A DNA stretch of 49,024 nt from Candidatus Stoquefichus massiliensis AP9 (GTDB lineage: Bacteria; Bacillota_I; Bacilli_A; Erysipelotrichales; Coprobacillaceae): NCBI RefSeq assembly GCF_000455285.1, contig NZ_HG005289.1, positions 255,026 through 304,049 of the forward strand, read 5' to 3'. The translations under genes and the position numbers were made by a program. Below the pieces are notes generated by a model. The model saw only the letters and a list, made by a program, of their open reading frames with translations, was not told where the DNA came from and ran no database searches. Shown in pieces: positions 14,839 to 33,652 of this stretch; within the stretch, counting starts at the first letter, position 1, and each line of letters starts with the position of its first letter.

Positions 14839-14863
14839 AAAAAGAAAGTACCATCTCTGGTAC
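14839..14863 (-). terminator. Terminator at the end of the polysaccharide operon
   Basis: Minus strand GTACCA-GAGA-TGGTAC then TTTCTTTTT. It lies about 145 bp past the wzx stop. Apart from this hairpin I see nothing coding in 14746-15008. Confidence 0.65.
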
Positions 14864-15008
14864 TCAAATATGAATCTTCATATAATCATTTCTTGGATTT
14901 TTGCAATTAATATTTCTTCTTGTTTGATATTTGATACATGAGTATAGATTTGTGTAATAAAAATGAAAGCATCAAGTTATACTTTTTTTAGAAGATTCTA
15001 TAATTTGA

Positions 15009-16472: not shown

Positions 16473-16476
16473 TTAC

Positions 16477-17568: not shown

Positions 17569-17753
17569 ATTAACTTTACATTCCTTTCATCCTCTGACTT
17601 TAGAACATATATCAATTGATAATATCTTGTTTATAAAATCTAATATTTACTTAGATTAATCTTTTAATATTAATCAATCTGTTATTGTGAGTCTTTTCAA
17701 ATTCTACAAATATAATACTAATATTAATATAATCTTTTATTTTTTTAATTAGA

Positions 17754-18920
17754 CTAGTCTCTTTCAAACAAATCTCTCGTATATATCTTGCACTCTACAT
17801 CTTTCAATTCGTCTGTAACTCTATTCACAACAATAACATCACTAATCTTTTTAAATTCTTCCAAATCTTTTATAACTCTGCTCTTATAGAATTCATCTTC
17901 TTTTAGTGTTGGTTCATAAACAACAACTTCTATACCTTTTGCTTTTATTCTCTTCATAATTCCCTGTATTGCACTTGCTCTAAAGTTATCTGATCCTGAC
18001 TTCATTGTTAGTCTATAGATTCCTACTACTTTAGGTTGTTTATTAATAATTTCTTGTGCTATATGATCTTTTCTTGTTCTGTTGCTTTCTACTATGGCAC
18101 TGATTAAGTTCTCTGGCACATCCTGATAGTTAGCCTTTAACTGTTTTGTATCCTTTGGTAGACAGTATCCTCCATATCCAAATGATGGATTGTTGTAATG
18201 ACTGCCTATTCTAGGATCTAAACATACTCCTTCAATAATATCCTTGGTATTTAATCCTTTCATTTCTGCATAGGTATCTAATTCATTAAAGTATGATACT
18301 CTTAATGCAAGATATGTGTTTGCAAACAACTTAATGGCTTCTGCCTCTGTACTATCTGTAAACAGCATTGGTATATCTTCCTTGATTGCTCCTTCTGCTA
18401 ACAGATTAGCAAATTCTCTTGCTCGTTCACTCTTTTCACCAACAACTATTCTTGATGGATAAAGGTTATCATATAACGCTTTTCCTTCTCTTAAGAATTC
18501 TGGTGAAAAGATAAGATTATCTACTCCATATTTTTCTTTCATCTGTTTTGTAAATCCAACAGGTATTGTTGATTTGATAATCATAATAGCTTTTGGATTA
18601 ATTTCTAATACTGATTCAATAGTCTCCTCTACACTAGATGTATCAAAGTAATTCTTCTGCTCATCATAGTTGGTAGGTGTACTAATGACTATAAATTCAG
18701 CATTTTTAAAAGCAACCTCTTTATCAAGAGTTGCTTTTATGCTTAAGTCTTTATTTTTTAAATAATCTTCAATTTCCTCATCCTGAATAGGTGAAATATG
18801 ATTATTAATCATATTCACCTTTTCTTTTATAATATCTAAAGCAACAACATCATGATGCTGTGCCAATAATGTAGCAATACTTAATCCTACATACCCTGTT
18901 CCTGCGACTGCTATTTTCAC
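17754..18920 (-). CDS. ugd: UDP-glucose 6-dehydrogenase
   Basis: 388 residues, closely resembling the short E. coli Ugd type. Features: N-terminal [10 protein letters not shown] Rossmann motif, [43 protein letters not shown], and the catalytic Cys loop [15 protein letters not shown], then [16 protein letters not shown]. It oxidises UDP-glucose to UDP-glucuronate using NAD+. The start is a GTG at 18920 behind AGGAAAGGAAT; the nearby ATG is out of frame and stops at once. A 185-bp non-coding gap with no clear promoter separates it from the epimerase gene. Confidence 0.93.
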
Positions 18921-18958
18921 ATTTTTATTCCTTTCCTAAATAGAATTTTACTATATAA

Positions 18959-20079
18959 TTATTTTTTTATATACATAACTAAATGAAATATAAACAGAAA
19001 TGTAATTGGTATCATTCTAGTAGTAATTAACTCTAAATTCTCAAACATTGAAATAGAAAGCCATCCAACAAAAAAATTTACAAATATAATCTTTTTATTA
19101 TACCTATATAATAACTTCTTTAGTATTAAAAACATTAATAAACAAAACACAAAAAACGAAAAAAAACCGAAACATCCTAAAATTTGTAATAAGGCATTAT
19201 GAGCATCAAAAGGCAATCCACTCACTGTTATTCCTGCATAATCTTTTAGGTAATATATACCATTACCAAACAAACTAGCATTATTAATAGTGTATTTCCA
19301 TATATCGCTTCTACCAGAAGTTAAATCCTCATTTCCCCATTTATGAAAAAATATGTTATTAAAAAACATAGAGATATCATCAAAAAATATTAAACCAAAA
19401 ATGACCACTATCATTAATATTATAATTTCTTTAAATGATTTCTTCTCATTAAAAAAAAGATGAACATAAGTGATTACAGACACTATCAAGAAACACATCA
19501 TTGAAGTTCTCGATCTAGTTATAGCCAATAAAAAAATTATAAATAAGTTACAAATAATAAAAACAAAAAATTTTTATCTTGTTTTATACACAATCTATTC
19601 ATCAGTAATATTCCCATAAAAGCAATTAGCACACCTTGAGAATTAGTACTTACTACACCATATAAAGAGAAAGCTATAATCATAGCTGTAAAATATGCAT
19701 AACAAATACATAAGTATATAGTATCCATATTTTTAAAAGAAATTTTAGACAGTAAAAATATACTAATTATAAGCAAAACAGCTGATAACAAAGAATTTAT
19801 ATCAATCTTGATTATTGAGATAAATACAATAAAAACAAGAAAAATTAATATTGTATTTAAAATAAGTTTATTTAAATTATCTACTTTGTGATTTGATATT
19901 TTATTAATTAATAAAAAAAGTATTATTATATATATAACTGGAAAAAATCCTCTTACTTCAAATTTTATAGCTAAATTTCTAGAATTAAATGATATCAAAA
20001 TCCCCACAAAAAAAAATAAAATTGATATTAAATATATTATAAAAACTCTTAACTTATAAATATTCATCTTAAATTTCAT
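18959..20079 (-). pseudogene. wzy: Wzy-type O-antigen/capsule polymerase, frameshifted
   Basis: Two adjacent frames, 20079-19537 and 19528-18959, together make one multi-pass membrane protein (about 10 helices, about 370 aa). At 19565-19575 the minus strand reads GAT-A5-T6-G. Adding one A there turns the first frame into ...DKKFFVFIICNLFIIFLLA, joining directly to ITRSRTSMMCFLIVSV in the second frame. The RSRTS motif is typical of the Wzy/WaaL family (PF04932), and the second half has the large outside loop (FHKWGNEDLTSGRSDIW). As sequenced the polymerase would be cut off after 180 residues. Either a real inactivation or switch, or an assembly error in the A/T tract. Confidence 0.8.
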
Positions 20080-20218
20080 TCAATTTATAATCCTCCTATA
20101 TTCATTTGTTTATTATTCAATAAATTAATTTTAGTGTTTTGCATTTAATTTAGTAAAAAGAAAAAATTTATAATTAAATAAAAATCTAAAATTAAGGTTG
20201 AGTCTCATTTCAATTGTA

Positions 20219-21334
20219 TTAAAAGTTAGAAGGTATTAATTTAATTTCTTTTAAAATAGTATTATTAAAAGAACATTGATATTGAATTCTTTTAGATGCA
20301 CTCTCAGACAATTTCATAAAAAAATCACTATCATTCAATATCAATTCATATGCATCTACAAAAGTAGATATATCATTATTTTTACATAATAATCCATCTT
20401 TTTTATTAGTTATAAATTCAGGGATAGCTGTATTATATGATGTTATCGGCACTAAGCCACTACTCATAGCTTCACACATTGAAACACCTTGTGCATCTTG
20501 TCGAGTAGGACATAAAAATACACCATATTCCTTATGTATTTTAGCTACTTCTTCCTGTGTCATAAATTTATTACATACATTTACATTATTAAATTTAGTA
20601 ACTTTTTGTGTTAGTTTATCAAAATATTTTCCAACACCATAAATAGTTATTGTTAATTCATTAAAATAACTTTTTTTACTTAATTCTTTAATAAACTTAA
20701 TTGAAATGTCATTTGCATATTTTCTATTTTCAAAGCTTCTAACTATTAATATTTTTTTACGTTGAGAAATATCCTTATTATTATAATTAAAAATGGAATT
20801 ATCTATATAATTTGGTATTATGCAATAATTATCTATACTAGATTTTATATCATGACATGTTATTCTATACATCCAATCAGAAACAAATATAAATTTAGTA
20901 TCTGAGTGATGGTTAATATAATTTCTAAAGCATTTCAGTTGTTTATTGTTTTGATATATATATAAGGGAAAATGCAGGTTTAAATTAAATAATCTTCTTT
21001 TCCAACTTAACGCTTCAAAACCATGAACCCATACATAACATTTATTTTTATCATTAATAACATCCATAATTTCTTTATTTAAAAAATGTATAAAAATAGA
21101 ATCATAAATTTTATTAGTCAAAATTTGCTTTATATTGTTTAAATTATCATTATAGACATTAACTGTCTCAAAAATATACTTACTTTTATTATTTGAAATA
21201 GTATAAACATCGATTTGAATTCCCAATCTCTGATATGCACGTACTCTGCTATGTATAAATGCCATCATATTTGGCTTTTTATATGATGGATATGACGGCG
21301 CTAAAACAGCAATTTTTAAATTTTTATATTCCAT
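20219..21334 (-). CDS. GT4-type glycosyltransferase
   Basis: The start is placed at ATG 21334 behind TAGGAG; the 28 extra residues up to 21418 have no SD. 371 residues. N-terminal KIAVLAPSYPSYKKP (GT-B first strand) and the C-terminal nucleotide-sugar site: CPTRQDAQGVSMCEAMSSGLVPITSYNTAIPEFI, i.e. the E-x7-E type motif. It would add one sugar to the lipid-linked repeat unit on the inner face of the membrane. The sugar and linkage cannot be told. Confidence 0.85.
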   Translation of the reverse strand: MEYKNLKIAVLAPSYPSYKKPNMMAFIHSRVRAYQRLGIQIDVYTISNNKSKYIFETVNVYNDNLNNIKQILTNKIYDSIFIHFLNKEIMDVINDKNKCYVWVHGFEALSWKRRLFNLNLHFPLYIYQNNKQLKCFRNYINHHSDTKFIFVSDWMYRITCHDIKSSIDNYCIIPNYIDNSIFNYNNKDISQRKKILIVRSFENRKYANDISIKFIKELSKKSYFNELTITIYGVGKYFDKLTQKVTKFNNVNVCNKFMTQEEVAKIHKEYGVFLCPTRQDAQGVSMCEAMSSGLVPITSYNTAIPEFITNKKDGLLCKNNDISTFVDAYELILNDSDFFMKLSESASKRIQYQCSFNNTILKEIKLIPSNF

Positions 21335-21499
21335 TACTTTTCTCCTAATATTTACTGATTTTTCCCTTTTATTTTCAAGAATACACTTTATAAATTTATT
21401 TAAAGTAAATTTATTCACTTAAACATTTTAATAGTTACTATATCAAAAAGTGTTTATTTATCTATAAACAATTTATATGGAATAAACACATGAAATATA

Positions 21500-22441
21500 T
21501 TACTTTTTAATTCCTTCATAACCAAATGATTTTTTTGTAATTATTCGATTTAAAAGATAAAAAAAATAACTTATTATATATTTTATAGAAACATGATTAT
21601 CTTTAAGAATTTTAAATCCTTTTATTATTTTTCTTTTATATAAAGCAATTCTAAATCTTTCTAAACTTATAACTGATATAACTTTTCTTTTATCCTTAAT
21701 TGATAATTTATCAATTCTTTCATTAAATACCTTTAAATAATATTTAGAAATTTCTTCAAGTTCTTCAAATGTTCTTTCTTTACTCCTATTTTCTTGATGA
21801 ATAATCAATTCTATTGAATCAATATATTTTAATTTTGTCTTTTCTAAAACTCTAACTAAGAATTCTATATCCTGATTTCTGACAAATGATTCATCATAAC
21901 CTCCAATATCATCAACAATGCTCTTTAATAGAAATAGATTAGAACCTGATCCTAAATATAACGTCCTCATCAATGCACTTAAATATAAATTACCACTTCT
22001 TTTTTCAGATGATAATTGAATCTTATTTTCTGACTTTATCAATTTATACCCTGTGTAACAAGCACCAAATTCATCATTTTTTTCTAAACAATTTACTTGT
22101 TTTTCTATTTTACTGTTTTTAATCTCATCATCATCATCTATAAAAGTTATATATTTCCCATTTGCATGTTTCCATCCTGTATTACGTGCTGACGACCCAT
22201 TTCTATTATATTTGTGTTTAATATATTGTATTTTATGATTATCAATATATTTACTCATAATTATTTCAGTTTCTTTACGTGATACAGTATTTGGATTATT
22301 ATCATCAACTATAATAATTTCTATATTTTTATAAGTTTGTGTTAATACAGATTGAATCGTTCTATCTAACATCGTTGGTCTATCATAAGTAGGAATTATG
22401 ATAGATACAAGTGGAATTACTTCATTATTGCTTTCTTTCAC
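21500..22441 (-). CDS. GT2-type glycosyltransferase
   Basis: 313 residues. N-terminal GT-A fold: PLVSIIIPTYDRP, IQSVLTQTYKNIEIIIVDD, and the metal-binding acidic motif KYITFIDDDDE, then a GSGSNLFLLKS segment and NQDIEFLVRV. The C-terminal about 70 residues are basic with a hydrophobic patch (YIISYFFYLL), as in membrane-associated capsule transferases. Start overlaps the end of the preceding GT4 gene by 4 bp (ATGA), so translation is coupled. Confidence 0.88.
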   Translation of the reverse strand: MKESNNEVIPLVSIIIPTYDRPTMLDRTIQSVLTQTYKNIEIIIVDDNNPNTVSRKETEIIMSKYIDNHKIQYIKHKYNRNGSSARNTGWKHANGKYITFIDDDDEIKNSKIEKQVNCLEKNDEFGACYTGYKLIKSENKIQLSSEKRSGNLYLSALMRTLYLGSGSNLFLLKSIVDDIGGYDESFVRNQDIEFLVRVLEKTKLKYIDSIELIIHQENRSKERTFEELEEISKYYLKVFNERIDKLSIKDKRKVISVISLERFRIALYKRKIIKGFKILKDNHVSIKYIISYFFYLLNRIITKKSFGYEGIKK

Positions 22442-23523
22442 ATTCTCCCCTCCATTTGATAAATATTATTCATAATTTTATTTACTACATTTATATCAAA
22501 TTTTTCAATTTTTTTTGATTTATATTCTTCTTTTATTGAAACCCTTTCTAAATTATCTTTAATTAATTTAGTTATTACTTCAATATCATCAACTTTAAAT
22601 AGATATTCCTCCTCAAGAAGATCTTTACAACCTCTAATATTGGATGCAATACATGTTTTATTACATGCAATTGCCTCCATTAATGATACTGGTAATCCTT
22701 CTCTATATGAAGGAAATACAAACAAATCAGAACATTTTAAAATCTCAATAACATCATGGCGAAACCCAATAAGTTTTAAGTTCACATGATAACGCTTTGC
22801 TAACTGATATAACTCATCTTTTAATGGACCTTCGCCACATATTAAAAATGTGTATGGCACTTTGATATTCTTCAATGCTTTTAGTACAATTTTATGGTTT
22901 TTATTCTTATTAAGTTCTCCTACCGAAACAACAATTGGTTTAGTAGAACTAATACCTAACTCTTTGCATTTTTCTTCTTTATTAAAAACTGTTTTATTTA
23001 TTTCATTAATGTTAATTCCAATTCCAGGTACATATTCTAATCTTTTCATATAGAAATTTTTATTAGCTCTTGCATAATCTTCAGTATTGATAGTAATTAA
23101 TATATCAGTGTATTTAGATAGCCATTTTTCAATAGGATAATATATCAACCAATTCAATAATGGTGCACCTTTATAAAAATGAAAGCCATGTGCTGTATAA
23201 ATACAAAACTTACTTGTTTTATATGCAACCAGTCTTCCCAGAACTCCACCTACTGGTGTATGACAGTCAATTATATCTATATTTTTAGAATTAATTAATT
23301 GAATCAATTCTTTATATGCACTGTAATTCTTTAAAGAGAAAGGGGTTCTTTGGATTGATAAATAATGCATTTTCACATATGAAGGTATTTTATTTTCAAG
23401 ATCATGTACTGAACCAACTGCAGCATGTATTTCATATCCTAACTCATGCAGTATTTCAAATTTATTAACCATAAAGGCATTTAAAAAACTTGGTATTGTA
23501 GCTATAAATAATATCTTTTTCAT
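22438..23523 (-). CDS. GT4-type glycosyltransferase (EpsD/PglA-like)
   Basis: 361 residues. N-terminal acceptor domain with ILFIATIPSFLNAFMVNKFEILHELGYEIH and CHTPVGGVLGRL. The C-terminal domain has VSVGELNKNKNH, LICGEGPL, LIGFRHDV and FVFPSYREGLPVSLMEAIACNK, the GT4 donor-binding site with the EGLP..LMEA motif. The pattern 'HTPVGG..GR' is common among transferases acting on Und-PP-linked bacillosamine or galactose early in repeat-unit assembly. Both ends overlap the neighbouring genes by 4 bp. Confidence 0.88.
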   Translation of the reverse strand: MKKILFIATIPSFLNAFMVNKFEILHELGYEIHAAVGSVHDLENKIPSYVKMHYLSIQRTPFSLKNYSAYKELIQLINSKNIDIIDCHTPVGGVLGRLVAYKTSKFCIYTAHGFHFYKGAPLLNWLIYYPIEKWLSKYTDILITINTEDYARANKNFYMKRLEYVPGIGININEINKTVFNKEEKCKELGISSTKPIVVSVGELNKNKNHKIVLKALKNIKVPYTFLICGEGPLKDELYQLAKRYHVNLKLIGFRHDVIEILKCSDLFVFPSYREGLPVSLMEAIACNKTCIASNIRGCKDLLEEEYLFKVDDIEVITKLIKDNLERVSIKEEYKSKKIEKFDINVVNKIMNNIYQMEGRM

Positions 23524-24998
23524 AGTAACATCTCCTCATTTAAATAACTTATTTTATCCCAGCCTTCTGCAGGTATAAAGTAATTATTTCTATCAAATGA
23601 AATATTCTTAATTAACTTCAAATGATATCTTTCTTCATTTGAAAACACTTTTACATCATCTACATTATTACCCATAAATGGAATTTTATATTTTTCCAAT
23701 GTATTGATATAATTAAGAACAGGAACCATCTTAATATTTAATCCCATAAAATATACAAGAAAATAATCAAATGCAATCATATTATCCGAACATAGTATTC
23801 CACCAACATATTTAGGAGTGGGAGCCAATGGCCCATTCTTTTCTCCAGATATGATCATATCTCCAATCGTGAAAATATTTCTCTGCGGTTCATTGCTTAG
23901 ATTACCTTCTTTATCAGCATATATAACAGCTCGATCAATATCTAATATAGATCTCCAAATTGTATCATTTCTGTACCAGTTCCCAGTTCCTTGATATTTC
24001 TTATGAGTTAATCTTCTGAAAATAAAAAAAGGTATTCTCATTACCTTAATTAATCTTCCCATCTGATTATTGCCTTTTTTCAAGTACATTAATTCCTGAT
24101 CTCTTAATTTTGTTTCTGTACCAAATATGATTTTAGGACCGTTAAATTCATCTCCACCATCATTCATGCTTCCAACAACTGTATGCGGGATAGAATTCTT
24201 ATGAAAACTTGTACCTATAAAATTTTTTAATGCTCCTGTATATCCTGCTTTCCTATGTGTCTTTGGCTTACATAGATTGATTATACAATCTGCTTCCAGA
24301 ACTTGCTTGCTTATTGAACAGATATTATCAACTTCATTATGATACTTTCTATTCATATCATCAAAATCAACAATTCCATTCCTATATCGACCAATTTTAT
24401 TACTTATTTCATAAAAGTAGGAACTATTCTTTAAATTAACCTCTATTTCTTCTGATTTAATTTCATCTACATTAATTTGATTTTCGAATCCTGATACAAT
24501 ATTTCCTCTTAAATCTACAACCTCAATTTCAATATTTCTTTCCTTACACGACTGAAAAAGTTCATTATAATGAGCACTGATGAATAATTCTTTTAAATTG
24601 CAATCTGGCATAGGACTATCACCAACAATAATTTTCCCACTATCATTTAATGCTATATTGACATAATCGATAATGCAGCGAATTACTGATGCATGCGTTA
24701 CTAAGCAATCTATTCCTCCTTTTCTATTTTCATTTTTTTCTTCTACCCAATTTGGTTTTATTAATACTGTATCTCCTTTCTTTATCAAAGATTTAAAAGG
24801 ATTCCATTCTTTCTTTCCATAATTTTCTGAATCCAATCCAAAATTATACAAACAATTTCTTATCATATCATAAACTTCATTTTCTTCATTTGAAATATCG
24901 CTATATTTATATTCTGGATACTTCTTACTAGGAGCATAACCATACTTACATGATGGATAATGTACATTTTTCCTTTTTTCAAAACTAACCTTTTCCAT
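23520..24998 (-). CDS. DUF362 domain protein in a polysaccharide operon
   Basis: 492 residues from ATG 24998, chosen because GGAGG lies 5 bases upstream and the ATG overlaps the preceding stop by one base (TAATG). DUF362 features: VLIKPNWVEE, LVTHASVIRCIIDYV, VGDSPMPDCN, KTHRKAGYTGALKNFIGTS. Many DUF362 proteins carry ferredoxin-type Cys clusters; none is seen here. Function in capsule synthesis is unknown to me. Its tight coupling to the CapK-like enzyme suggests the two act on one substrate. Confidence 0.75.
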   Translation of the reverse strand: MEKVSFEKRKNVHYPSCKYGYAPSKKYPEYKYSDISNEENEVYDMIRNCLYNFGLDSENYGKKEWNPFKSLIKKGDTVLIKPNWVEEKNENRKGGIDCLVTHASVIRCIIDYVNIALNDSGKIIVGDSPMPDCNLKELFISAHYNELFQSCKERNIEIEVVDLRGNIVSGFENQINVDEIKSEEIEVNLKNSSYFYEISNKIGRYRNGIVDFDDMNRKYHNEVDNICSISKQVLEADCIINLCKPKTHRKAGYTGALKNFIGTSFHKNSIPHTVVGSMNDGGDEFNGPKIIFGTETKLRDQELMYLKKGNNQMGRLIKVMRIPFFIFRRLTHKKYQGTGNWYRNDTIWRSILDIDRAVIYADKEGNLSNEPQRNIFTIGDMIISGEKNGPLAPTPKYVGGILCSDNMIAFDYFLVYFMGLNIKMVPVLNYINTLEKYKIPFMGNNVDDVKVFSNEERYHLKLIKNISFDRNNYFIPAEGWDKISYLNEEMLL

Positions 24999-26305
24999 TA
25001 TTTCCTCCACTCATTAGATATATACCTTCTCTTCCCAGAACTCAATACAGGAATTTCATCAACAAATTCAACCGCTATTATAGCGTCCTGACCTACAATT
25101 TCCTTTAATTCACTTTCTATTAAAGCCACATCAATATTATTGGATATATTTAAAATTAACTTATATTCTTTTTCATCAGACTGGATGAATTGAAATTGTC
25201 TTATGTTTGGATAGTCCCACATCATATTCGTAATGCTGTGTGGCGATATAACTTCCCCTGTAGTTTTATAAATAATATCAATCTTTCGACCTCCAAATTG
25301 ATCAATGACTCTTTTTGCTATTCCATTATGATCTTTTCGATAACTTATTCTACCAATATCACCTGTATCATAGCGAATCATTGGCATTGCATAATTATAT
25401 AAATCCGTAACAACAATGCGCCCAATCTCACCTTCATCTGCTGGTTTATCTTCATTCAATTTAAATATCTCAACATAATAATTTGCCTCATTTAGATAAA
25501 AAACATTATTTTCTAATTCATCCTGTCCTATTACGCCATTCTCTTCATTAGAATACCTTGAATAACAACGACACTGAAATGTTTCTTCAATATTTTTTCT
25601 TACATCATCAAATAACATATCAGATCCACTCACTACTCCTGACAATTTAATATTTGGTAGATTATGATTGTTCTTAATATATTCACTCAAAACCTTATAT
25701 GTTGATCCATACCCTAATAGCATTGCTTTGCCATTTTGGCTATACTTTATTATCTTGTTTAATAAAAACTTTAATTTATCATTTGATAAATTGTTACAAT
25801 CAAGCGTAAACTGATTTTGCATCAATTGCTTATAGTATGGCTTTTTACTTCTATTTGACAATGATCTTAAATAAATAAGGTTATTTCCAATTTTATATCC
25901 AACTTTTTGACTGTAAAAAATTATTTCGGAACTTACTTTTTTCTTTTTATATGCATTTTGATAACATATAAACGGTGTTCCAGTTGATCCACTTGTAGCC
26001 ATTTGGAATAATTGTTCATGTTTGTAATCTGAATTCATAATTTTTTCTTGATTATCTTTTATGATATTTTTATTTATTAATGGAAAATCCATAAAATCCA
26101 TTCCCTTGTTTATCGAATAAAATTCTGTTTTATTCGTTGCAGTTTCTATTAACCTCTCTATGTTTTTCTTTCTATCATTTAGTAACCACTCGTCATTATA
26201 ACTTAACTTATCATATTTATTTAAAATCATTAAATTATTTGTAATTATCGAGCCTTTCAGTTTATCCAATAAAAAGAAAACTTCTCTTCTTAATTTATTA
26301 AACAT
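24998..26305 (-). CDS. CapK/PaaK-like adenylate-forming enzyme
   Basis: 435 residues. The P-loop of the ANL superfamily is present as MATSGSTGTPF. SRYSNEENGVIGQ is the substrate/acetyl-like core, MIRYDTGDIGRI the ATP-ribose motif with its Asp, and GRKIDIIY the hinge; SSGKRRYI carries the C-terminal catalytic Lys. This is the phenylacetate-CoA ligase-like subfamily often found in capsule loci (CapK). It should activate a carboxylic acid as an acyl-adenylate, for transfer to a thiol or amine. The acid is unknown. The neighbours (ATP-grasp, two GNATs, a PLP enzyme) suggest an N-acyl decoration of an amino sugar. Confidence 0.82.
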   Translation of the reverse strand: MFNKLRREVFFLLDKLKGSIITNNLMILNKYDKLSYNDEWLLNDRKKNIERLIETATNKTEFYSINKGMDFMDFPLINKNIIKDNQEKIMNSDYKHEQLFQMATSGSTGTPFICYQNAYKKKKVSSEIIFYSQKVGYKIGNNLIYLRSLSNRSKKPYYKQLMQNQFTLDCNNLSNDKLKFLLNKIIKYSQNGKAMLLGYGSTYKVLSEYIKNNHNLPNIKLSGVVSGSDMLFDDVRKNIEETFQCRCYSRYSNEENGVIGQDELENNVFYLNEANYYVEIFKLNEDKPADEGEIGRIVVTDLYNYAMPMIRYDTGDIGRISYRKDHNGIAKRVIDQFGGRKIDIIYKTTGEVISPHSITNMMWDYPNIRQFQFIQSDEKEYKLILNISNNIDVALIESELKEIVGQDAIIAVEFVDEIPVLSSGKRRYISNEWRK

Positions 26306-26308
26306 ATA

Positions 26309-27274
26309 TCAAATTCCTTTCTTTATGGATATATCCAAATACTTCATCATATAGATATCTTTATCATATTTACCTATCTGGGATTGATTGATTATACCGT
26401 TCATGTTATTCATCATATATTTAGGAAAATTACACCCACATTCATACGCATGTGGATATCCTCCGCCAAATCTTGGATTAACTTCTGATACGTAAAATTC
26501 ATCATTCTTCTCAAATACATCTATATCTATCTGTCCAATAAATCCCATCTTTTTTACAAACTCTTCAACTAGTTTAAATAATTTATCATTCTTTACAGAA
26601 ACAGATTTATCAGTTTCTCCTGCACGCATCAATAATTTTTTCTTAATAAAAATAGATATTATCTCTTTTGAAATAACATCTACATAAACATCCACACCGT
26701 ATTCAAACCCATTCATATATTCCTGAATCATAAGGTTATCATATTTTTTCATATTGAACTCTAAATCATCAATATTATTAATCAGTTGTATATTCATGCT
26801 GCAGCTGCCATTATATGGCTTTACAAACACTGGAAAATCAATCTTTCTACTCATATAATCTTCTTTAAATTCATTAAAATCGACATAGCTCTTTACTGTT
26901 GGAACATCTAATTCTTTACATGTTTCATACATTCTATATTTATCAAAGCAAGCCTCTACTATTTCATAGTCAGATACAAATGGTATAATTCCCTTTTCAA
27001 TAAATCTTTTTTTGTTTTTTGATATTAACGACAGTTCAGGATCTATCAAAGAAAATACTCCCTCTATCTGTTCCTTATCACAAATTTCAAATATACAATC
27101 TAGATATTTTGAATCATCAATTCTAGGGACTATATAATACCTATCAGCTGTATACAACGTTGGTGCCAATGGATTGCAGTCTGTACATATAACCTTTCCT
27201 TTTCCATTGATTTCCTTTTTAAAATATTCTACAATCTTATTTCTCGTTCCAGAACTTAATATAAGTATGTTCAT
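26309..27274 (-). CDS. ATP-grasp ligase (carbamoyl-phosphate-synthase-like family)
   Basis: The start is set at ATG 27274 because GGAGGG lies 5 bases upstream, inside the end of the preceding gene; only one base separates stop and start. 321 residues. MNILILSSGTRNKIVEYF is the pre-ATP-grasp Rossmann domain; then TDCNPLAPTLYTADRYY, FPVFVKPYNGSCSMNI (ATP-binding Lys and glycine loop), IQEYMNGFEYGVDVYVD, and YVSEVNPRFGGGYPHAYE (metal-binding Glu/Asn). Such enzymes form amide bonds through acyl phosphates. It probably links an amino acid or other carboxylate to an amine during polysaccharide decoration; the substrates are not visible. Confidence 0.85.
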   Translation of the reverse strand: MNILILSSGTRNKIVEYFKKEINGKGKVICTDCNPLAPTLYTADRYYIVPRIDDSKYLDCIFEICDKEQIEGVFSLIDPELSLISKNKKRFIEKGIIPFVSDYEIVEACFDKYRMYETCKELDVPTVKSYVDFNEFKEDYMSRKIDFPVFVKPYNGSCSMNIQLINNIDDLEFNMKKYDNLMIQEYMNGFEYGVDVYVDVISKEIISIFIKKKLLMRAGETDKSVSVKNDKLFKLVEEFVKKMGFIGQIDIDVFEKNDEFYVSEVNPRFGGGYPHAYECGCNFPKYMMNNMNGIINQSQIGKYDKDIYMMKYLDISIKKGI

Positions 27275-27275
27275 T

Positions 27276-28685
27276 CTATCCCTCCAATTCATTAAAAAAC
27301 AATGGTGTCCCTCCTGTATGAATAAACAGAATATTTTTATTTTCAATATGATTTGCCTTTATATACTCCATCATTCCATAAAACGCTTTTCCCGTATATG
27401 TTGTGTCCAATGGGATTCCATACTTAAAAAAGACATTATTGATCATTGCTTTTATTTTACTATTCCCTGAACCGTAACAATCTCCTGTATAATCATCAAC
27501 GAATACTGTTTCTTCTTCAATAACTTTACAGTTCAAATTAAAGCCATTTTCTTTTAGATATGTATTCATGCTATTGATTACTATATCTCTGCCGTAGGGA
27601 TATTTTCTTGCTATGCTAATGCCAACTACATGAGCATTATCATTATATAGAATCTTTCCCAGAACCAGCCCTGCCTGTGTTGTTCCAGTTCCAGACGCAA
27701 AAAAGATATAGTCAAAATGAATATTTTCCTGCATTTCATAGTCATATATTTCCTTATAGCAGTCAATCATAGCCTTGGTACCTAGATTTCCATGTCCTCC
27801 ACCCTCTATAAAATAGGGATTAAATCCTTGGTTTTTTAGTCTTTCTATTTCTCTATTAATAGTGTCATTAATATCACTGACTGATGCCACCACTACTTCA
27901 GCATCCAGTAATTTTATGATCTTCTTATTGTATGTTTCCTTTTCCTGCTCAATCGGACTAATTATCAAGCATGCTAGATTTACAGACTTTGCAAGATTTG
28001 CAACTATTCGGCAATGATTGGAGCTTGAAGTTCCATATGTAACTATATAGTCACTCCCTCTGCTTTGAATATCTTCAAAAAACAAAATAGCTTTTCTTGC
28101 CTTGTTGCCACCAAAAGAAAAAGGTATAAGATCATCTCTCTTAACAAATAACTGATTTGAACAGTCATTTAAAGCATAAATAGGTGTTTTTATGCAATTC
28201 CTATTATGTAGTTCATAGTAATACCTATCTCTATAAGCACCATCACGTAATACATCCTTCTTTTTGATTCCATATCTAATAAATCCCACTTTATCAAAAA
28301 GAGCCTGTGCTGATAGGTTATCTATTTCTGTGACCAGTATTAATTTAGAAAGATTCAAGGTTTCGAAAGCATAATCCTTCAATACTAATAATGCCTTTTT
28401 AGCTATTCCTTTTCCCAAATATTTTCTTTCGCCTATTGTAATATACAGTTCAGCACCATACTGATTAATATTCAGCAATCCTATAATTCCAACTGCAATA
28501 CCATCACACTCTATAACTAAATCAAGTCTATCCTTTTTATCTTTTATATTTGCAAACCATCTTAATGTATTCTCTTTTTTTAGTGGTAAACTGTAATGTA
28601 GATATTTGTTATTGAGAGGGTTGTTAATCCATTCGATTTTTTTATCTATATCATCTTCATTAAATCTTCTGAGGAGTATTTTCAT
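27276..28685 (-). CDS. Fusion: N-terminal GNAT acetyltransferase + C-terminal PLP enzyme of the D-cysteine desulfhydrase/ACC deaminase family
   Basis: 469 residues. Residues 1 to about 155 are a GNAT (LRRFNEDDIDKKIEWINNP, ELYITIGERKYLGKGIAKKA with the acetyl-CoA loop, TEIDNLSAQALFDKVGF). From about 160 a complete fold-type II PLP enzyme follows: LFVKRDDLIPFSFGGNKARK (Schiff-base Lys in GGNK), VTYGTSSSNHCR, EGGGHGNLGT, FASGTGTTQAGLV, and a C-terminal IHTGGTPLFF. Relatives remove sulfide or ammonia from small D-amino acids to give 2-oxoacids. The fused pair inside a capsule operon suggests the PLP reaction supplies, or edits, a building block. The SD CAGGGAG lies in the end of the previous gene, whose stop overlaps this start (ATGA). 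Confidence 0.85.
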   Translation of the reverse strand: MKILLRRFNEDDIDKKIEWINNPLNNKYLHYSLPLKKENTLRWFANIKDKKDRLDLVIECDGIAVGIIGLLNINQYGAELYITIGERKYLGKGIAKKALLVLKDYAFETLNLSKLILVTEIDNLSAQALFDKVGFIRYGIKKKDVLRDGAYRDRYYYELHNRNCIKTPIYALNDCSNQLFVKRDDLIPFSFGGNKARKAILFFEDIQSRGSDYIVTYGTSSSNHCRIVANLAKSVNLACLIISPIEQEKETYNKKIIKLLDAEVVVASVSDINDTINREIERLKNQGFNPYFIEGGGHGNLGTKAMIDCYKEIYDYEMQENIHFDYIFFASGTGTTQAGLVLGKILYNDNAHVVGISIARKYPYGRDIVINSMNTYLKENGFNLNCKVIEEETVFVDDYTGDCYGSGNSKIKAMINNVFFKYGIPLDTTYTGKAFYGMMEYIKANHIENKNILFIHTGGTPLFFNELEG

Positions 28686-29275
28686 ATATACACTCCCTGA
28701 GAGTGAATTATGTTATAGAATTCATACCCCCCCCCCGAGATTTTCGGGCTTAATTTTTCCATAATGAAAAGTGAACAGTAATGTCCATCTATAAATCTCT
28801 CTTCATGCAATCTGCCTGCTTCAACATATCCTAATGACTGATACATCCTAACTGCTCTGATATTTTCCTCAACTACAGACAACTTAATTTTTCTTAGATT
28901 CAGATAATCAAATGCGTAATTCTCAATCAGTCTGCATGCTTCCTTTCCATATCCAGAACCCTGTAATTTGCATTCTCCTATAAAAACTCCTAACTCACAA
29001 GTTCTATTGATCCAGTTTATTTCATATAGTCCGATCATTCCAATGGCCTCATGCTTATCATCTGATTCAATAATAAATCTTTTATTACTTCCTGTAGTAT
29101 TCATCATATTTTCCATCCATTTTTTTTGAATATCGATAGATGTTGGAAGAAATCCTCCTCCTAGATACTTATAAACCGACTCGGTATTTTTCCATTTATT
29201 TAATAAATATACATCATCATAAATAATGGGACGTAACTTTACTTTATCTCCATTCATTATTGTCATGATTATCAT
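28682..29275 (-). CDS. GNAT acetyltransferase (PseH/RimL-like), probable amino-sugar N-acetyltransferase
   Basis: 197 residues as read with ten Gs. DKVKLRPIIYDDVYLLNKWKN, then ELGVFIGECKLQGSGYGKEA (acetyl-CoA loop) and VEENIRAVRMYQSLGYVEAGRLHEERF mark a RimL/PseH-type GNAT. Next to PglC- and PglE-like genes, it is a good candidate for acetylating the 4-amino group of a UDP-sugar, the step done by PglD in Campylobacter. The catalytic domain ends near MEKLSPKIS. What follows is encoded by a G10 run (28727-28736) and a short tail to 28682. One G more or less would replace the last about 18 residues and move the stop 30 or more bases away from the next start codon. Confidence 0.82.
   Translation of the reverse strand: MIIMTIMNGDKVKLRPIIYDDVYLLNKWKNTESVYKYLGGGFLPTSIDIQKKWMENMMNTTGSNKRFIIESDDKHEAIGMIGLYEINWINRTCELGVFIGECKLQGSGYGKEACRLIENYAFDYLNLRKIKLSVVEENIRAVRMYQSLGYVEAGRLHEERFIDGHYCSLFIMEKLSPKISGGGYEFYNIIHSQGVYI
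28727..28736 (-). repeat. G10 homopolymer tract at the GNAT 3' end
   Basis: Ten Cs on plus, that is G10 in the coding strand, followed by TATGAA. Long G runs are not expected by chance in DNA of about 30% GC. Length changes would alter the GNAT C-terminus and its 4-bp overlap with the next gene. Confidence 0.85.
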
Positions 29276-29278
29276 CTC

Positions 29279-29872
29279 CTATTGATTGGCATAAATATTT
29301 TTTGAACTAAATACTGCCCACACTGTTTTCAATATGATTTTTACGTCATTTATAAAACTGATATCTTGTACGTATCTTACATCATATTCGATTCTTTCAT
29401 CCCATGTTGCTGAATTTCTTACTTCCGATTGTGCAAGACCTGTCAATCCTGGTCTTGCATCAAATCTCCTTTTTTTAAAGTCATCATATTCTCCTATCTG
29501 ATATGGATGATATGTAACTGGAGGTCTTGGTCCAATAATTGACATATCACCTTTACAGATATTAAACAGCTGAGGCAATTCATCTAGGGAGGTTTTTCTT
29601 AAGAATTTTCCTATTCGTGTAATTCGTGGATCACTTCCCTCCTTTACCTTTAAACCATCTCCAATATGCTCTGCATTAACAATCATTGTTCTAAATTTTA
29701 TAATTTTAAATACATTTTGATGAATACCGACTCTTTCCTGTAAGAAAAAGATTGGTCCCTCTGAAGTTGATTTAATCAGAATACAAATAATTATAAACAA
29801 TGGACTTAGAATAATAATAGTTACCAGTGACAATATAAAATCAAGCATTCTTTTTATATACTTTCTATACAT
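29279..29872 (-). CDS. pglC: PglC-like initiating phosphoglycosyltransferase
   Basis: 197 residues, the short single-domain type. One N-terminal hydrophobic re-entrant helix (LDFILSLVTIIILSPLFIII), then FFLQERVGIHQNVFKIIKFRTM, SDPRITRIGKFLRKTSLDELPQL (catalytic Asp-Glu pair of the family), GDMSIIGPRPP and RPGLTGLAQ. It transfers a sugar phosphate from a UDP-sugar to undecaprenyl phosphate, starting the repeat unit. With PglF- and PglE-like genes upstream, UDP-di-N-acetylbacillosamine or a close relative is the likely donor. Confidence 0.9.
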   Translation of the reverse strand: MYRKYIKRMLDFILSLVTIIILSPLFIIICILIKSTSEGPIFFLQERVGIHQNVFKIIKFRTMIVNAEHIGDGLKVKEGSDPRITRIGKFLRKTSLDELPQLFNICKGDMSIIGPRPPVTYHPYQIGEYDDFKKRRFDARPGLTGLAQSEVRNSATWDERIEYDVRYVQDISFINDVKIILKTVWAVFSSKNIYANQ

Positions 29873-31004
29873 GATTCCACAACCCTTTGATAATACTACA
29901 GATTCTTTCTAAGTCTTCATCAGTCATCTTTGTGTCACTTGGCAGGCAGACTCCATGTTCAAATAATCTCTGTGATGTTTGATTATCATCAATATAGTCA
30001 CATTCACTAAAGACTGGCTGCATATGCATTGGTTTCCACACTGGTCTTGATTCTATATCATTCTCTTCTAATGCTATCATGATATCTAATGGCTTTACCT
30101 TACAGTTATCATCTAACTGTATTGTTGTTAGCCAGCAGTTGGAATAGGAATTATATAAATCTCTAGGCATAAGTGTTAATCCCTTAAGTTCTGATAATTC
30201 TCTTTGGTAATACTCATAAATGTATCTTTTCTTGGATACTCTTTGATCTAATACCTTTAGCTGCCCTCTACCAATTCCTGCGACAACATTACTCATGCGA
30301 TAGTTATATCCTATTTCCTTATGTTCATAATGCCTTGCATTCTCTCTTGCCTGTGTTGACCAGAATAGTACCTTTGATGCTTTCTCTTTTGCATCATCAG
30401 TATTAAAAAGAAGCATACCACCACCTGATGATGTAATGATCTTATTTCCATTGAATGAAATAATTCCATAATCACCAAATGTTCCTGTATACTTCCCATT
30501 GACTGTTGTTCCTAATGATTCTGCCGCATCCTCTATTAAAGGAATATCATATTCATTGCATATGCTTTTGATTTCTTCTATCTTTGCCGTTAATCCATAT
30601 AAATGAACAACTATAACTGCCTTAGGTAAATTATTCTTATACTTTTCAAAAGCTTCTCTTAATGCCTTAGGTGACATATTCCAAGATTCATCACTATCAA
30701 TGAATACTGGTATAGCCTTTTCATAAGTAATTGGATTGGCAGAAGCACTGAAAGTCAGACTCTGACAAAAGACTAAATCTCCCTGTTTTATTCCAACACT
30801 CTTTAGAGCCATATGAATAGCAGCTGTACCACAAGACAAGGCAACTGAAGTTTTAGCACCTAGCTTACTTTTCATTTCATTTTCAAATTCATTCACATTC
30901 TTACCTAAAGGAGCAATCCAATTGGTATCAAATGCTTCCTGTATATATTCTTTTTCATAGCCTTCATCACTCATATGTGGTGAAGCTAAAAAGATATGTG
31001 ACAT
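29865..31004 (-). CDS. pglE: DegT/DnrJ/EryC1-type sugar aminotransferase (PglE-like)
   Basis: The start is placed at ATG 31004 with GGAGGG 7 bases upstream; 379 residues. Features: LASPHMSDEGYEKEYIQEAFDTNWIAPLG, ALSCGTAAIHMAL, LVFCQSLTFSASANPI, EDAAESLGTTVNGK (PLP-binding Asp) and FNGNKIITSSGGGML (Schiff-base Lys). Such enzymes aminate the 4-keto sugar made by a PglF-like dehydratase, giving UDP-4-amino-4,6-dideoxy-GlcNAc. The stop overlaps the pglC start by 8 bases. It lies just beyond a weak terminator hairpin, so LoaP probably controls its transcription. Confidence 0.9.
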   Translation of the reverse strand: MSHIFLASPHMSDEGYEKEYIQEAFDTNWIAPLGKNVNEFENEMKSKLGAKTSVALSCGTAAIHMALKSVGIKQGDLVFCQSLTFSASANPITYEKAIPVFIDSDESWNMSPKALREAFEKYKNNLPKAVIVVHLYGLTAKIEEIKSICNEYDIPLIEDAAESLGTTVNGKYTGTFGDYGIISFNGNKIITSSGGGMLLFNTDDAKEKASKVLFWSTQARENARHYEHKEIGYNYRMSNVVAGIGRGQLKVLDQRVSKKRYIYEYYQRELSELKGLTLMPRDLYNSYSNCWLTTIQLDDNCKVKPLDIMIALEENDIESRPVWKPMHMQPVFSECDYIDDNQTSQRLFEHGVCLPSDTKMTDEDLERICSIIKGLWNHV

Positions 31005-31037
31005 TATCAATCCCTCCAAACATATATTTTTGTATAC

Positions 31038-31065
31038 AAAAAAAGCCATAGCATTCACTATGAAC
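31038..31065 (-). terminator. Weak intrinsic terminator between loaP and the pglE-like gene
   Basis: Minus strand TCATAG, 6-nt loop, CTATGG (31063-31046, one G-U pair) followed by C and T7. It lies 15 bp after the loaP stop and inside the operon, where an antiterminator would be needed to read through. Confidence 0.55.
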
Positions 31066-31080
31066 TTTCATATACCCTCA

Positions 31081-31605
31081 TTAACTTTTACTAATGACTT
31101 CAAGTCCAACTTGAACAGTTGTGATTTGACCAAACAATGAAACATCAACATAAGCCACTCTCTTATGCCTATCAATTTTCATTATACTTCCTTCTTGTCC
31201 CATCAAAGGACCATTTGTAATACAAATACTATCACCTTCAATATATCCACAAGAAATATCTACAACATGTTCACTTCCACCAAACCTTGCAAGAAATATA
31301 GCCTCATCTTTATATATGGGATAAATATTCTTCCCATCATTCCCTAATAGTTTCGTTAAATCAGGTATCTTCTTTAACTCATTAAATAAGTCATCTATAT
31401 GATCACTTATCATAAAGACATAACCTCTAAATAAAATTTCCTCAATGTTATGCCATTGACCTCTTATTTTCCTCATCCTCTTACATCTAGGAATAAAACA
31501 TTCAATCAAAGCATGATTATCAATAATCATATCACATGCTCTTACGATTTCATCTTCTCTGCCGCACCTCACTTGTACAGCATACCAATTATCATACACG
31601 TTCAT
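31081..31605 (-). CDS. loaP: LoaP-type NusG paralogue, operon antiterminator
   Basis: About 174 residues. Start uncertain: GGAGG lies 1 base before ATG 31605 and 7 bases before an in-frame GTG at 31599; an ATG at 31632 has no SD. The NGN domain is visible as NWYAVQVRCGREDEIV...FIPRCKRMRKIRGQW...LFRGYVFM, and the C-terminal KOW as GYIEGDSICITNGPLMGQEG and VGLEVISK. NusG paralogues of this size at the head of polysaccharide or antibiotic operons are LoaP in Firmicutes and work as processive antiterminators. Upstream in the leader is a bulged hairpin; downstream is a weak terminator. It would let RNA polymerase traverse the 16-kb operon that follows. Confidence 0.88.
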   Translation of the reverse strand: MNVYDNWYAVQVRCGREDEIVRACDMIIDNHALIECFIPRCKRMRKIRGQWHNIEEILFRGYVFMISDHIDDLFNELKKIPDLTKLLGNDGKNIYPIYKDEAIFLARFGGSEHVVDISCGYIEGDSICITNGPLMGQEGSIMKIDRHKRVAYVDVSLFGQITTVQVGLEVISKS

Positions 31606-31681
31606 TCCTCCATTTGGATATGCTTCGCCCATCGAAATATGAAATAAATATACTTCGACTTGGCTTAGTTATAACAAATTG

Positions 31682-31715
31682 CTTGAGTAACGCGACCACG
31701 CGACGATTACTCAAG
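31682..31715 (-). promoter_or_regulatory. Bulged RNA hairpin in the loaP leader, candidate LoaP recognition element
   Basis: The RNA (minus strand) folds as a perfect 9-bp stem CUUGAGUAA/UUACUCAAG, a 4-nt bulge UCGU on the 5' side, then CGCG/CGCG closing a UGGU loop. The GC-rich tip is unusual in this AT-rich region. No U run follows, so it is not a terminator. It lies about 75 nt upstream of loaP and 20 bp past the dehydratase stop. Confidence 0.65.
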
Positions 31716-31735
31716 GACAATTCTTTTTCAATTAA

Positions 31736-33652
31736 CTAAACAGATACTTCTTCTACCTGTTCTTTCACTTTTCTTTTCACACCTTGTTTTTCTTTATCAT
31801 AATGATATGTTGGCACAAGATGCTTAACCGCCACTCTCATATCACTTTCTTCATCATAAGCGATTTTATATAAATCTTCAAGTTCTTTTAAGAATTTCTC
31901 AGTATTGATATCTATTGGCTGTCCTATATGAATCAACTTATTAGGTGTTGTTCTTAATCCTTCTTCTTTCATTAACATTTCTTCATAAAGCTTTTCACCA
32001 GGTCTTAACCCTGTAAACTCAATCTTAATATCAACATCAGGTTCATATCCAGACAACTTAATAAGATTTCTTGCCATATCAACAATCTTCACAGGTTCAC
32101 CCATATCTAAGATAAAAATTTCTCCTCCCTTAGCATAAGCACCAGCCTGTAAAACAAGCGATACTGCTTCTGGAATCGTCATAAAGAAACGAATAATATC
32201 TGGATGTGTAACTGTCACTGGTCCACCATTTTGAATTTGCTTTTTGAACAATGGAATAACAGAACCGTTTGATCCTAGTACATTCCCAAATCTCACAGCA
32301 ACATATTCAGTCTTAGACATTTTGTCATATGTTTGTACAACCATTTCACATAAACGTTTAGAAGCTCCCATAATATTGGTTGGATTGACTGCCTTATCAG
32401 TAGAAATAAGAATAAATTTCTTTGCTGCATATCGATCACAGGCTCTCACAACATTTAATGTTCCAAAAACATTATTTTTAATAGCTTCATGTGGTGCATC
32501 TTCCATCAATGGAACATGTTTATGTGCAGCAGCATGATAAACAATATCAGGATGAAACTCAGCAAACAATTCATTCACTTTATTAACATCTCTCACTGAT
32601 GCTATCATAACCTTTAAATCTAATTTAGGATACTTACGTTTTAATTCTAATTGAATATCATAGGCATTATTTTCATAAATATCAACAATAATCAATTGTC
32701 TTGGACCTCTTTCAGCAATTTGTCTACACAACTCACTTCCAATTGATCCGCCACCACCTGTAACCATAATTACTCTATCATACACATATGACATAATCTC
32801 ATCAAGATTCACACGAATAGGATCTCTTCCTAATAAATCCTGAATCTCTACATCCTTTAATTTATTGAGAATGATTTCACCAGAAATAAACTGATACATA
32901 CCAGGTAATTTCTTTAATTTACATTTTGTTTCTTTACAAATATTTAAAATTTCAGAAACTTGCTTATCATCAATAGATGGTAAAGCAACAAATATTTCAT
33001 CAATTTTATATTTTTGCACACAATCAATGATTGCATCTCTGTTTCCTACAACAGGTACACCATGAATAGATCTTCCCATTTTATTAGGATCATCATCAAT
33101 AAAACAAATAATTTCTCTATTTAATCTTGATGATACTAATATTTCCCTTAAAATCTTTTCACCAGCTGATCCTGCACCAATGACCATCACTCTTGATTTT
33201 GGTGTATCACTTCTGCCAAATAAATGATGACGACTCGCATACAATCTCAATAATCGATAACCAAATCGTGTTCCACCAGTAATCATTGTCACAATCATAA
33301 AATAAATAAAATATGTACTTTCAGGGGGATTAAAACCACTCAATTCACAAATCAGTACATTCACAATCGTGCTTGCAGCCGTTGCAATAACAATATTCAT
33401 CAATTCAGTGATAGACGCAAATTGCCATAAACTCGAATAAAGTTTCATGACAGCAAATAAGCCAAGACTGACAGCGAGGAGTACCATTGCTAGTGGTAAA
33501 GATCCCTGAATAAATCTTGACTCTATAGGTCCATTAAAATAGAGGGCTAGTGCACCATAGAAAGCAACAGTAATACTTATAGCATCAATAAAAATTAAAA
33601 TTAATCTGCGCATAAATAATTGCTTTCTATCTTTAATACTATTCATTTTCAT
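31736..33652 (-). CDS. pglF: PglF/WbpM-like UDP-N-acetylglucosamine 4,6-dehydratase (membrane)
   Basis: 638 residues from ATG 33652. Four N-terminal membrane helices (to about 125). A CoA/NAD-binding-like domain follows (RVMVIGAGSAGEKIL), then the catalytic SDR domain: VTGGGGSIGSELCRQ, YHAAAHKHVPLMEDAP, STDKAVNPTNIMGASKR (PglF-type Thr-Asp-Lys catalytic set replacing Tyr) and RFGNVLGSNGSVIPLF. It makes the UDP-4-keto-6-deoxy sugar for the PglE-like enzyme. An upstream ATG (33677) with SD AAAGGGAG reads into the same frame only if the intervening G run is 9 or 12 long; here it is 10, giving the dead-end MKKTVGGGYENE. From 33652 the G run itself would have to serve as SD. Expression is therefore likely phase variable. 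Confidence 0.92.
   Translation of the reverse strand: MKMNSIKDRKQLFMRRLILIFIDAISITVAFYGALALYFNGPIESRFIQGSLPLAMVLLAVSLGLFAVMKLYSSLWQFASITELMNIVIATAASTIVNVLICELSGFNPPESTYFIYFMIVTMITGGTRFGYRLLRLYASRHHLFGRSDTPKSRVMVIGAGSAGEKILREILVSSRLNREIICFIDDDPNKMGRSIHGVPVVGNRDAIIDCVQKYKIDEIFVALPSIDDKQVSEILNICKETKCKLKKLPGMYQFISGEIILNKLKDVEIQDLLGRDPIRVNLDEIMSYVYDRVIMVTGGGGSIGSELCRQIAERGPRQLIIVDIYENNAYDIQLELKRKYPKLDLKVMIASVRDVNKVNELFAEFHPDIVYHAAAHKHVPLMEDAPHEAIKNNVFGTLNVVRACDRYAAKKFILISTDKAVNPTNIMGASKRLCEMVVQTYDKMSKTEYVAVRFGNVLGSNGSVIPLFKKQIQNGGPVTVTHPDIIRFFMTIPEAVSLVLQAGAYAKGGEIFILDMGEPVKIVDMARNLIKLSGYEPDVDIKIEFTGLRPGEKLYEEMLMKEEGLRTTPNKLIHIGQPIDINTEKFLKELEDLYKIAYDEESDMRVAVKHLVPTYHYDKEKQGVKRKVKEQVEEVSV

Follow-up and report, generated by a model that had tools for sequence, protein, structure and literature searches.

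How does a NusG paralog of the LoaP family reach RNA polymerase at the head of a capsule operon? This question is raised by a 49,024-nucleotide stretch of Candidatus Stoquefichus massiliensis AP9 (the window), where loaP adjoins a long capsule/polysaccharide gene set. An earlier account made from the letters alone (the sequence-only reading) had proposed that a hairpin in front of loaP is the element that LoaP recognizes. Our analysis supports this proposal, corrects the structure of the hairpin and adds to it a second, ops-like module.

The loaP Operon

The genes and signals of the operon are arranged as follows:

31736–33652, minus strand: pglF-type nucleotide-sugar dehydratase (PF02719 and PF13727), upstream of the element
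31607–31611, minus strand: ribosome-binding site of loaP, GGAGG, 7 nt before GTG 31599
31081–31599, minus strand: loaP (NusG paralog, NF033641), the open reading frame being called from 31632
15009–31058, minus strand: capsule/polysaccharide genes, downstream
14846–14865, minus strand: terminator-like hairpin and U tract after the last gene

The window protein reaches 183 bits with the curated LoaP model NF033641 (cut-off, 125) and remains far under the cut-off with the NusG, UpxY, and RfaH models. Its genome carries seven NusG-like genes, one of which passed the LoaP search. Because GGAGG is present at 31611–31607 and the starts of relatives align there, loaP probably begins at GTG 31599, and the stretch from 31632 is therefore leader. 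The downstream genes encode an aminotransferase, a sugar transferase, glycosyltransferases, a Wzy-like protein, a UDP-sugar dehydrogenase, and an epimerase. The hairpin at 14865–14846 is the probable end of the operon, and the terminator scan of the window found no strong terminator inside its 16 kb. This anatomy fits the predicted polarity, according to which the genes from loaP onward would depend on LoaP and pglF would be exempt.

A Hairpin with a Conserved, Bulged Tip

The hairpin and its immediate surroundings comprise the following parts:

31677–31722, minus strand: putative LoaP recognition hairpin, full extent, delimited by fold, covariation, and conservation beside loaP
31722–31718 with 31681–31677, minus strand: distal helix AAUUG/CAAUU, which lengthens the main stem
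31715–31707 with 31690–31682, minus strand: main stem CUUGAGUAA/UUACUCAAG
31689–31708, minus strand: conserved core AAUCGUCGC-GUG-GUCGCGUU, with pairs C2-G16, G3-C15, C5-G14, G6-C13, and C7-G11
31706, 31703, and 31695, minus strand: bulged core bases U1, U4, and U12, respectively
31670–31675, minus strand: GUUAUA, a GUYAUA-type motif just 3' of the hairpin

The hairpin announced between the dehydratase and the NusG-paralogue gene is real. It is intercistronic and belongs to the minus strand, where it follows the pglF stop (31736) and lies upstream of the loaP-linked operon, 77 nt before GTG 31599; on this strand the pglF-loaP interval reads ...AATTGTCCTTGAGTAATCGTCGCGTGGTCGCGTTACTCAAGCAATTTGTTATAACTAAGCCAAGTCGAAGTATATTTATTTCATATTTCGATGGGCGAAGCATATCCAAATGGAGGAATGAACGTGTATGATAATTGG. 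Its perfect 9-bp stem corresponds to CUUGAGUAA/UUACUCAAG. The extent first given to it, 31675–31735, does contain the hairpin but has to be redrawn, the stem being longer (AAUUG/CAAUU) and the element running 3' to 31622. The minus-strand leader folds better than its shuffles (z = −2.3, 5/200), as does the plus-strand stretch (z = −3.2, 0/200). Moreover, the core motif is present as a single copy in the window, where shuffles predict none even with three mismatches, and the genome contains one hairpin match, both by pattern and by covariance model.

Such a GC-rich hairpin within a leader could be an intrinsic terminator or an attenuator of the operon. The sequence bears out the lack of a U run after the stem that had been noticed at the outset; the hairpin does not appear in the terminator scan list, and in several relatives a terminator-like hairpin distinct from it stands further downstream. 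Among 44 clostridial and coriobacterial loci, 20 have one in the interval from the element to loaP. We give this explanation next to no weight, and with no U run directly after the stem its intrinsic-terminator form is rejected.

On the other hand, the apical part of the structure had to be revised. The 4-nt bulge and the CGCG/CGCG tip closed by a UGGU loop, as originally drawn, do constitute the minimum-energy fold of the window alone (ViennaRNA, −14.1 kcal/mol versus about −11 to −12 for the conserved fold), but they are not the tip conserved among 54 sequences. The latter follows the frame AA-U-CG-U-CGC-NNN-G-Y-CGCG-UU and contains single-base bulges (U1, U4, and Y12) between the pairs C2-G16, G3-C15, C5-G14, G6-C13, and C7-G11, which hold in every lettered cell of the 54-sequence alignment. 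Compensatory changes from C-G to U-A are seen at C2-G16 in four sequences and at C5-G14 in three. The CGCG/CGCG tip was rejected as the functional fold: it shows zero compensatory changes, and 48 of 52 sequences cannot form its last (closing) pair. The conserved fold also outscores it in 50 of the 71 loci. We prefer the fold with single bulged bases because of this comparative evidence, despite the window's own lowest-energy fold.

The covariation check that had been suggested for both helices of loaP-linked leaders gave a split answer: the outer helix passes it and the tip helix as first drawn fails. Indeed, the outer helix covaries strongly, with up to six pair types per position across the 54 distinct sequences, and both-side changes in the outer helix and the conserved tip amount to 172 cells versus 63 in shuffles. 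Some details of the tip can be drawn in more than one way. The alignment is fitted equally well by G6-C13 (Y12 bulged) and by G6-Y12 (C13 bulged). RNAalifold proposes a U4-R14 pair, and one sequence (L034, with C5 facing A14) fits only this pair. The loop is C-GUGG-U in the window and UUCG, UUUG, AUUG, CUUG, and others in relatives, G11 being invariant.

Distribution of the Hairpin and Linkage to loaP

The loci examined were family orthologues plus 80 named ones obtained by scanning genomes of Erysipelotrichia, Lachnospiraceae, and Coriobacteriia. The motif AAUCGUCGC-NNN-G[UC]CGCGUU adjoins loaP in most of the gut Bacillota loci among them, and most Erysipelotrichia and Lachnospiraceae loci have the hairpin on the upstream side of loaP. 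Coriobacteriia have a divergent form that is one base shorter, and more divergent versions were recovered by the model and a relaxed scan. Within 43 family genomes, the core pattern gave 31 matches versus one for the reversed control pattern; a few of the 31 sit inside coding sequence and look like chance. When the hairpin model was applied to 395 genomes of the class, 10 genomes matched and all of them were LoaP-positive (10/10). The matches are weak, or seen in the relaxed scan only, in some LoaP genomes of the order, and the distant LoaP-like genes of other families of the class have no hairpin recognizable by model or relaxed scan.

An mRNA processing or stability structure guarding the pglF or loaP transcripts, independently of LoaP, would also be expected to have a strong stem and an intercistronic position such as this one, about 20 nt past the pglF stop. 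Against it, the loop-proximal sequence and the bulges hardly change from phylum to phylum, in contrast to the freely covarying outer stem. Besides, the hairpin is found in some leaders without pglF and, in two genomes, directly after loaP, and its presence tracks LoaP. We consider this explanation improbable.

The sequence-only reading had staked its proposal on conservation of the fold in related loci, and the fold is conserved there. The LoaP model score of the window protein, the covarying fold, the 10 LoaP-positive genomes out of 10, and the hairpin frame shared with a Bacillales-type locus (see below) all argue that the hairpin is a cis-acting RNA signal recruiting LoaP to RNA polymerase, a reading to which we assign a probability of roughly 0.85. 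The support gathered at this locus comes from comparing sequences, namely conservation, covariation, loaP linkage, and the co-occurrence and order of two modules; LoaP binding to the hairpin and the need for it in antitermination would follow by analogy with Bacillus velezensis (PMC12691694). A one-hairpin guess would in this way become a family-wide, testable LoaP recruitment signal in gut-bacterial capsule operons, and the corrected structure is the one for binding assays. The pattern could also guide the prediction of operons under LoaP control, even where loaP is not close by.

Four hairpins (L062, L068, L077, and L079) have no loaP directly downstream; they precede other polysaccharide-type or transporter genes or, at L079, lie beside a transposase-like gene, and are candidates for trans-controlled or decayed operons. 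We also observed that a cassette of about 665–705 bp, made of the hairpin leader and loaP, is duplicated within one genome, with 98–99.9% identity and unrelated flanks: L096/L098 (Beduini massiliensis), L174/L193 (genome G116), L040/L050 (genome G002, 1758954 and 1826125), and L093/L094. The two copies are in inverted orientation in three cases, and inversion of a capsule cluster could make use of such a cassette as its inverted repeat (compare Eggerthella lenta, PMC13174815).

Relation to the LoaP Hairpins of Bacillus

In B. velezensis, the dfn and mln leaders contain a hairpin, described as "UNCG-type", to which LoaP binds; deletion of this hairpin abolishes antitermination, a downstream pause helps, and NusA antagonism is part of the system (PMC12691694). 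As in dfn and mln, the leader RNA hairpin of the window is linked to loaP and to an extended biosynthetic operon. The window differs from them by its loop (GUGG, which is not a UNCG tetraloop), its capsular operon, and the intercistronic location of the site.

The loaP genes obtained from the class and phylum genome draws included no recognizable Bacillus locus, and the dfn leader was represented by a stand-in, L199 (CP079755.1, 102347–114853, a plasmid record labelled Klebsiella grimontii pNY3A). Its loaP gene, next to a polyketide/peptide synthase (PKS/NRPS) cluster, scores 201 bits with the LoaP model. The leader contains CTAATCGATGTTTCGGCACGTTAG, in which the 20-nt frame of the window recurs with its bulges in matching places (AAUCG-A-UGU-UUCG-GCACGUU); its loop, UUCG, agrees with the UNCG type published for dfn. 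Next comes GTCATA (GUCAUA in the RNA), a motif of the GUYAUA type whose loose form occurs in 45 of the 71 elements. The pattern AATCGNYGYNNNGNCRCGTT fits both AATCGATGTTTCGGCACGTT of L199 and the window. The hairpin model R1 misses the L199 hairpin, which was recovered by eye, by pattern, and by relaxed scan. L199 departs from the window by a U5-A14 pair where the latter has C5-G14, and by having no GGCGAAGC, the ops-like module described below. Together, these resemblances make a good but indirect case for placing the dfn hairpin in one family with the window element, dfn being compared through L199 and its published description. We file the window element as a variant because its own loop is not UNCG. 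As for the record itself, a Bacillales-looking loaP under a K. grimontii label suggests that it is possibly mislabelled or chimeric.

A Second Module Composed of a Hairpin and an Ops-Like Sequence

Downstream of the hairpin, the leader contains two further features:

31631–31659, minus strand: second hairpin, P2 (GUCGAAGUAU/AUAUUUCGAU), 10 pairs and a 9-nt loop
31622–31629, minus strand: GGCGAAGC, ops-like, directly 3' of P2

An exact GGCGAAGC is found in 58 of the 71 elements, 45–133 nt downstream of the hairpin (median, 56). It occurs once in the window and 149 times in the 2.5 million nt of fetched loci (both strands), many of these occurrences being the elements themselves; the extended pattern occurs once in the genome, at this leader. 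The mean stem score of P2 is 6.4 in the 58 leaders versus 3.1 for shuffles, with a minority of weak stems, and its two arms change together among aligned relatives. The 13 other elements, which include the Thomasclavelia-type clade and some others, have the hairpin without GGCGAAGC.

The ops12 element of E. coli RfaH is GGCGGTAGCGTG; its small non-template hairpin has C3:G8 as the closing pair (PMC5995543). The window has GGCGAAGCATA and not GGCGGTAGCGTG; the loop of GGCGAAGC is one base shorter, and P2 and the LoaP hairpin precede it. By analogy, GGCGAAGC could form a small ops-like hairpin with one fewer loop base. The surrounding alignment columns read GGCGAAGC-N-Y-R-Y-C-C, and a consensus pause (G-10, Y-1, R+1) would be predicted at GGCGAAGCAU, with U31620 as Y-1 and A31619 as R+1.

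This second module could be unrelated to LoaP, the hairpin alone being the signal and P2-GGCGAAGC serving, for instance, in translational control of loaP or as the site of another factor. Indeed, GGCGAAGC sits in the window just before the loaP ribosome-binding site, and both the Bacillales-type L199 and 13 of 71 elements dispense with it. However, GGCGAAGC is kept where loaP lies upstream (L036 and L039) or does not follow (L062 and L079), in many Lachnospiraceae a long distance separates it from the start of loaP, and it forms the end of RAGATH-28 as well, where the neighbours are phage NusG paralogs and, downstream, terminase genes. Since it persists without a downstream loaP, the module probably belongs to the cis signal and not to loaP translation control. 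We regard a role for the hairpin alone as rather unlikely and lean towards a composite, bipartite loading site made of the hairpin and P2-GGCGAAGC.

According to this bipartite reading, polymerase would pass the end of pglF, the hairpin would emerge, and LoaP would bind it. About 50 nt further on, P2 and GGCGAAGC-N-Y followed by R would cause an ops-like, hairpin-assisted pause, giving bound LoaP time to dock on the polymerase, possibly with a contact to non-template DNA at GGCGAAGC. Once modified, the polymerase would read through the sites of termination and pausing that it meets in loaP and in the roughly 16 kb of capsule genes, and loaP itself would be subject to positive feedback. The ops-like half could explain why a pause helps LoaP.

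Two other occurrences of the module deserve mention. L038 carries on its minus strand two LoaP hairpins in tandem (at 246 and 1434), each with a GGCGAAGC module, the first preceding what looks like a broken second loaP copy. L243 (about 1490–1590) presents CAUA, a hairpin, and GGCGAAGC just upstream of a TrmA-like methyltransferase gene, and no LoaP hairpin was found at that place; the CAUA-hairpin-GGCGAAGC module may be used by other operons too.

RAGATH-28 and the NusG Paralogs of Phages

RAGATH-28 (Rfam RF03052; gathering threshold, 45.3 bits) is an orphan RNA. The window gives no match to its covariance model even at E 1. In a permissive Rfam scan, a Lachnospiraceae leader matched RAGATH-28 over its full length with a low score, and more leaders matched in the same register. 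The 3' end of the family consensus reads CAUA...hairpin...GAUGGCGAAGC. Scanning 47 LoaP genomes gave weaker matches of 17–37 bits and one above the gathering score, and a LoaP-like gene was also present in 13 of the 20 match loci examined in these genomes. The above-gathering locus and a second one (from 299 genomes) each have a NusG-paralog gene immediately upstream and a terminase large subunit gene downstream; the LoaP model gives the two paralogs 94 and 115 bits, under its cut-off.

Viruses show the same association. All nine viral loci that were fetched by protein and scanned carry RAGATH-28, with 52–63 bits. Starting from the RNA, a pattern scan of viral contigs gave 80 loci, and a LoaP-like NusG paralog lies near the element in 60 of the 75 informative ones; 58 of these 60 genes end at most about 320 nt upstream of the element, most of them at most 45 nt. 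The control, a strict pattern of LoaP hairpin plus GGCGNAGC with similar specificity, matched 25 times in viral contigs; these matches are treated as chance, and none (0/25) had a NusG paralog nearby. In phages, all four bases (A, G, U, and C) occur at the N position of GGCGNAGC. An enclosing terminator around P2 was considered as a general phage feature and rejected, being clear in a minority only (mean, 5.9 versus 5.3 for shuffled sequences).

RAGATH-28 thus resembles the window element by its 3' half, with the CAUA motif, a second hairpin, and a terminal UGGCGAAGC, and by its location beside a NusG paralog close to LoaP. It differs by its 5' hairpin (GGUUGAUNCGUCC), which is unlike the LoaP hairpin, and by being phage-borne, downstream of the paralog and between the terminase small and large subunit genes. 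Read most simply, the signal would be modular, a paralog-specific RNA hairpin being combined with a shared ops-like pause. More broadly, we find it somewhat probable that a two-part loading code is common to the LoaP-family NusG paralogs of gut bacteria and of their phages: each would have its own hairpin, then P2 and GGCGNAGC, and RAGATH-28 would be the phage version of this code. If so, these phages would possess an antitermination system based on a NusG paralog, the orphan RAGATH-28 would have a candidate function, loading a NusG-like antiterminator, and the shared code would join the RNA-hairpin recruitment of LoaP with the non-template-DNA recruitment of RfaH. The literature that we covered, which is partial, contained no published account of the ops-like half or of the RAGATH-28 link, whose novelty is provisional; RAGATH-28 is named in none of the papers covered.

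UpxY Leaders and Other NusG Paralogs

The UpxY leaders of Bacteroides capsule loci (PMC7819879) are comparable in that a NusG paralog stands at the start of a capsule operon and acts in its own leader. UpxY nevertheless represents another paralog family, its model giving the window protein 56 bits for a cut-off of 100.

Other NusG paralogs occur in tandem pairs, in a genus-mate (G001, about 1258–1495; L009, L010, L011, and L013) and in the window's own genome (G000, contig C5, near 82 kb and 267 kb). The four G001 pairs have inverted repeats of 26–32 nt (TTCGCAGAA...TTCTGCGAA), 133–163 nt apart, before the first gene, an arrangement that resembles the phase-variable invertible promoters located before Bacteroides upxY/upxZ. 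At L014 and L043–L045, a tyrosine-recombinase-like reading frame lies just upstream of the NusG paralogs.
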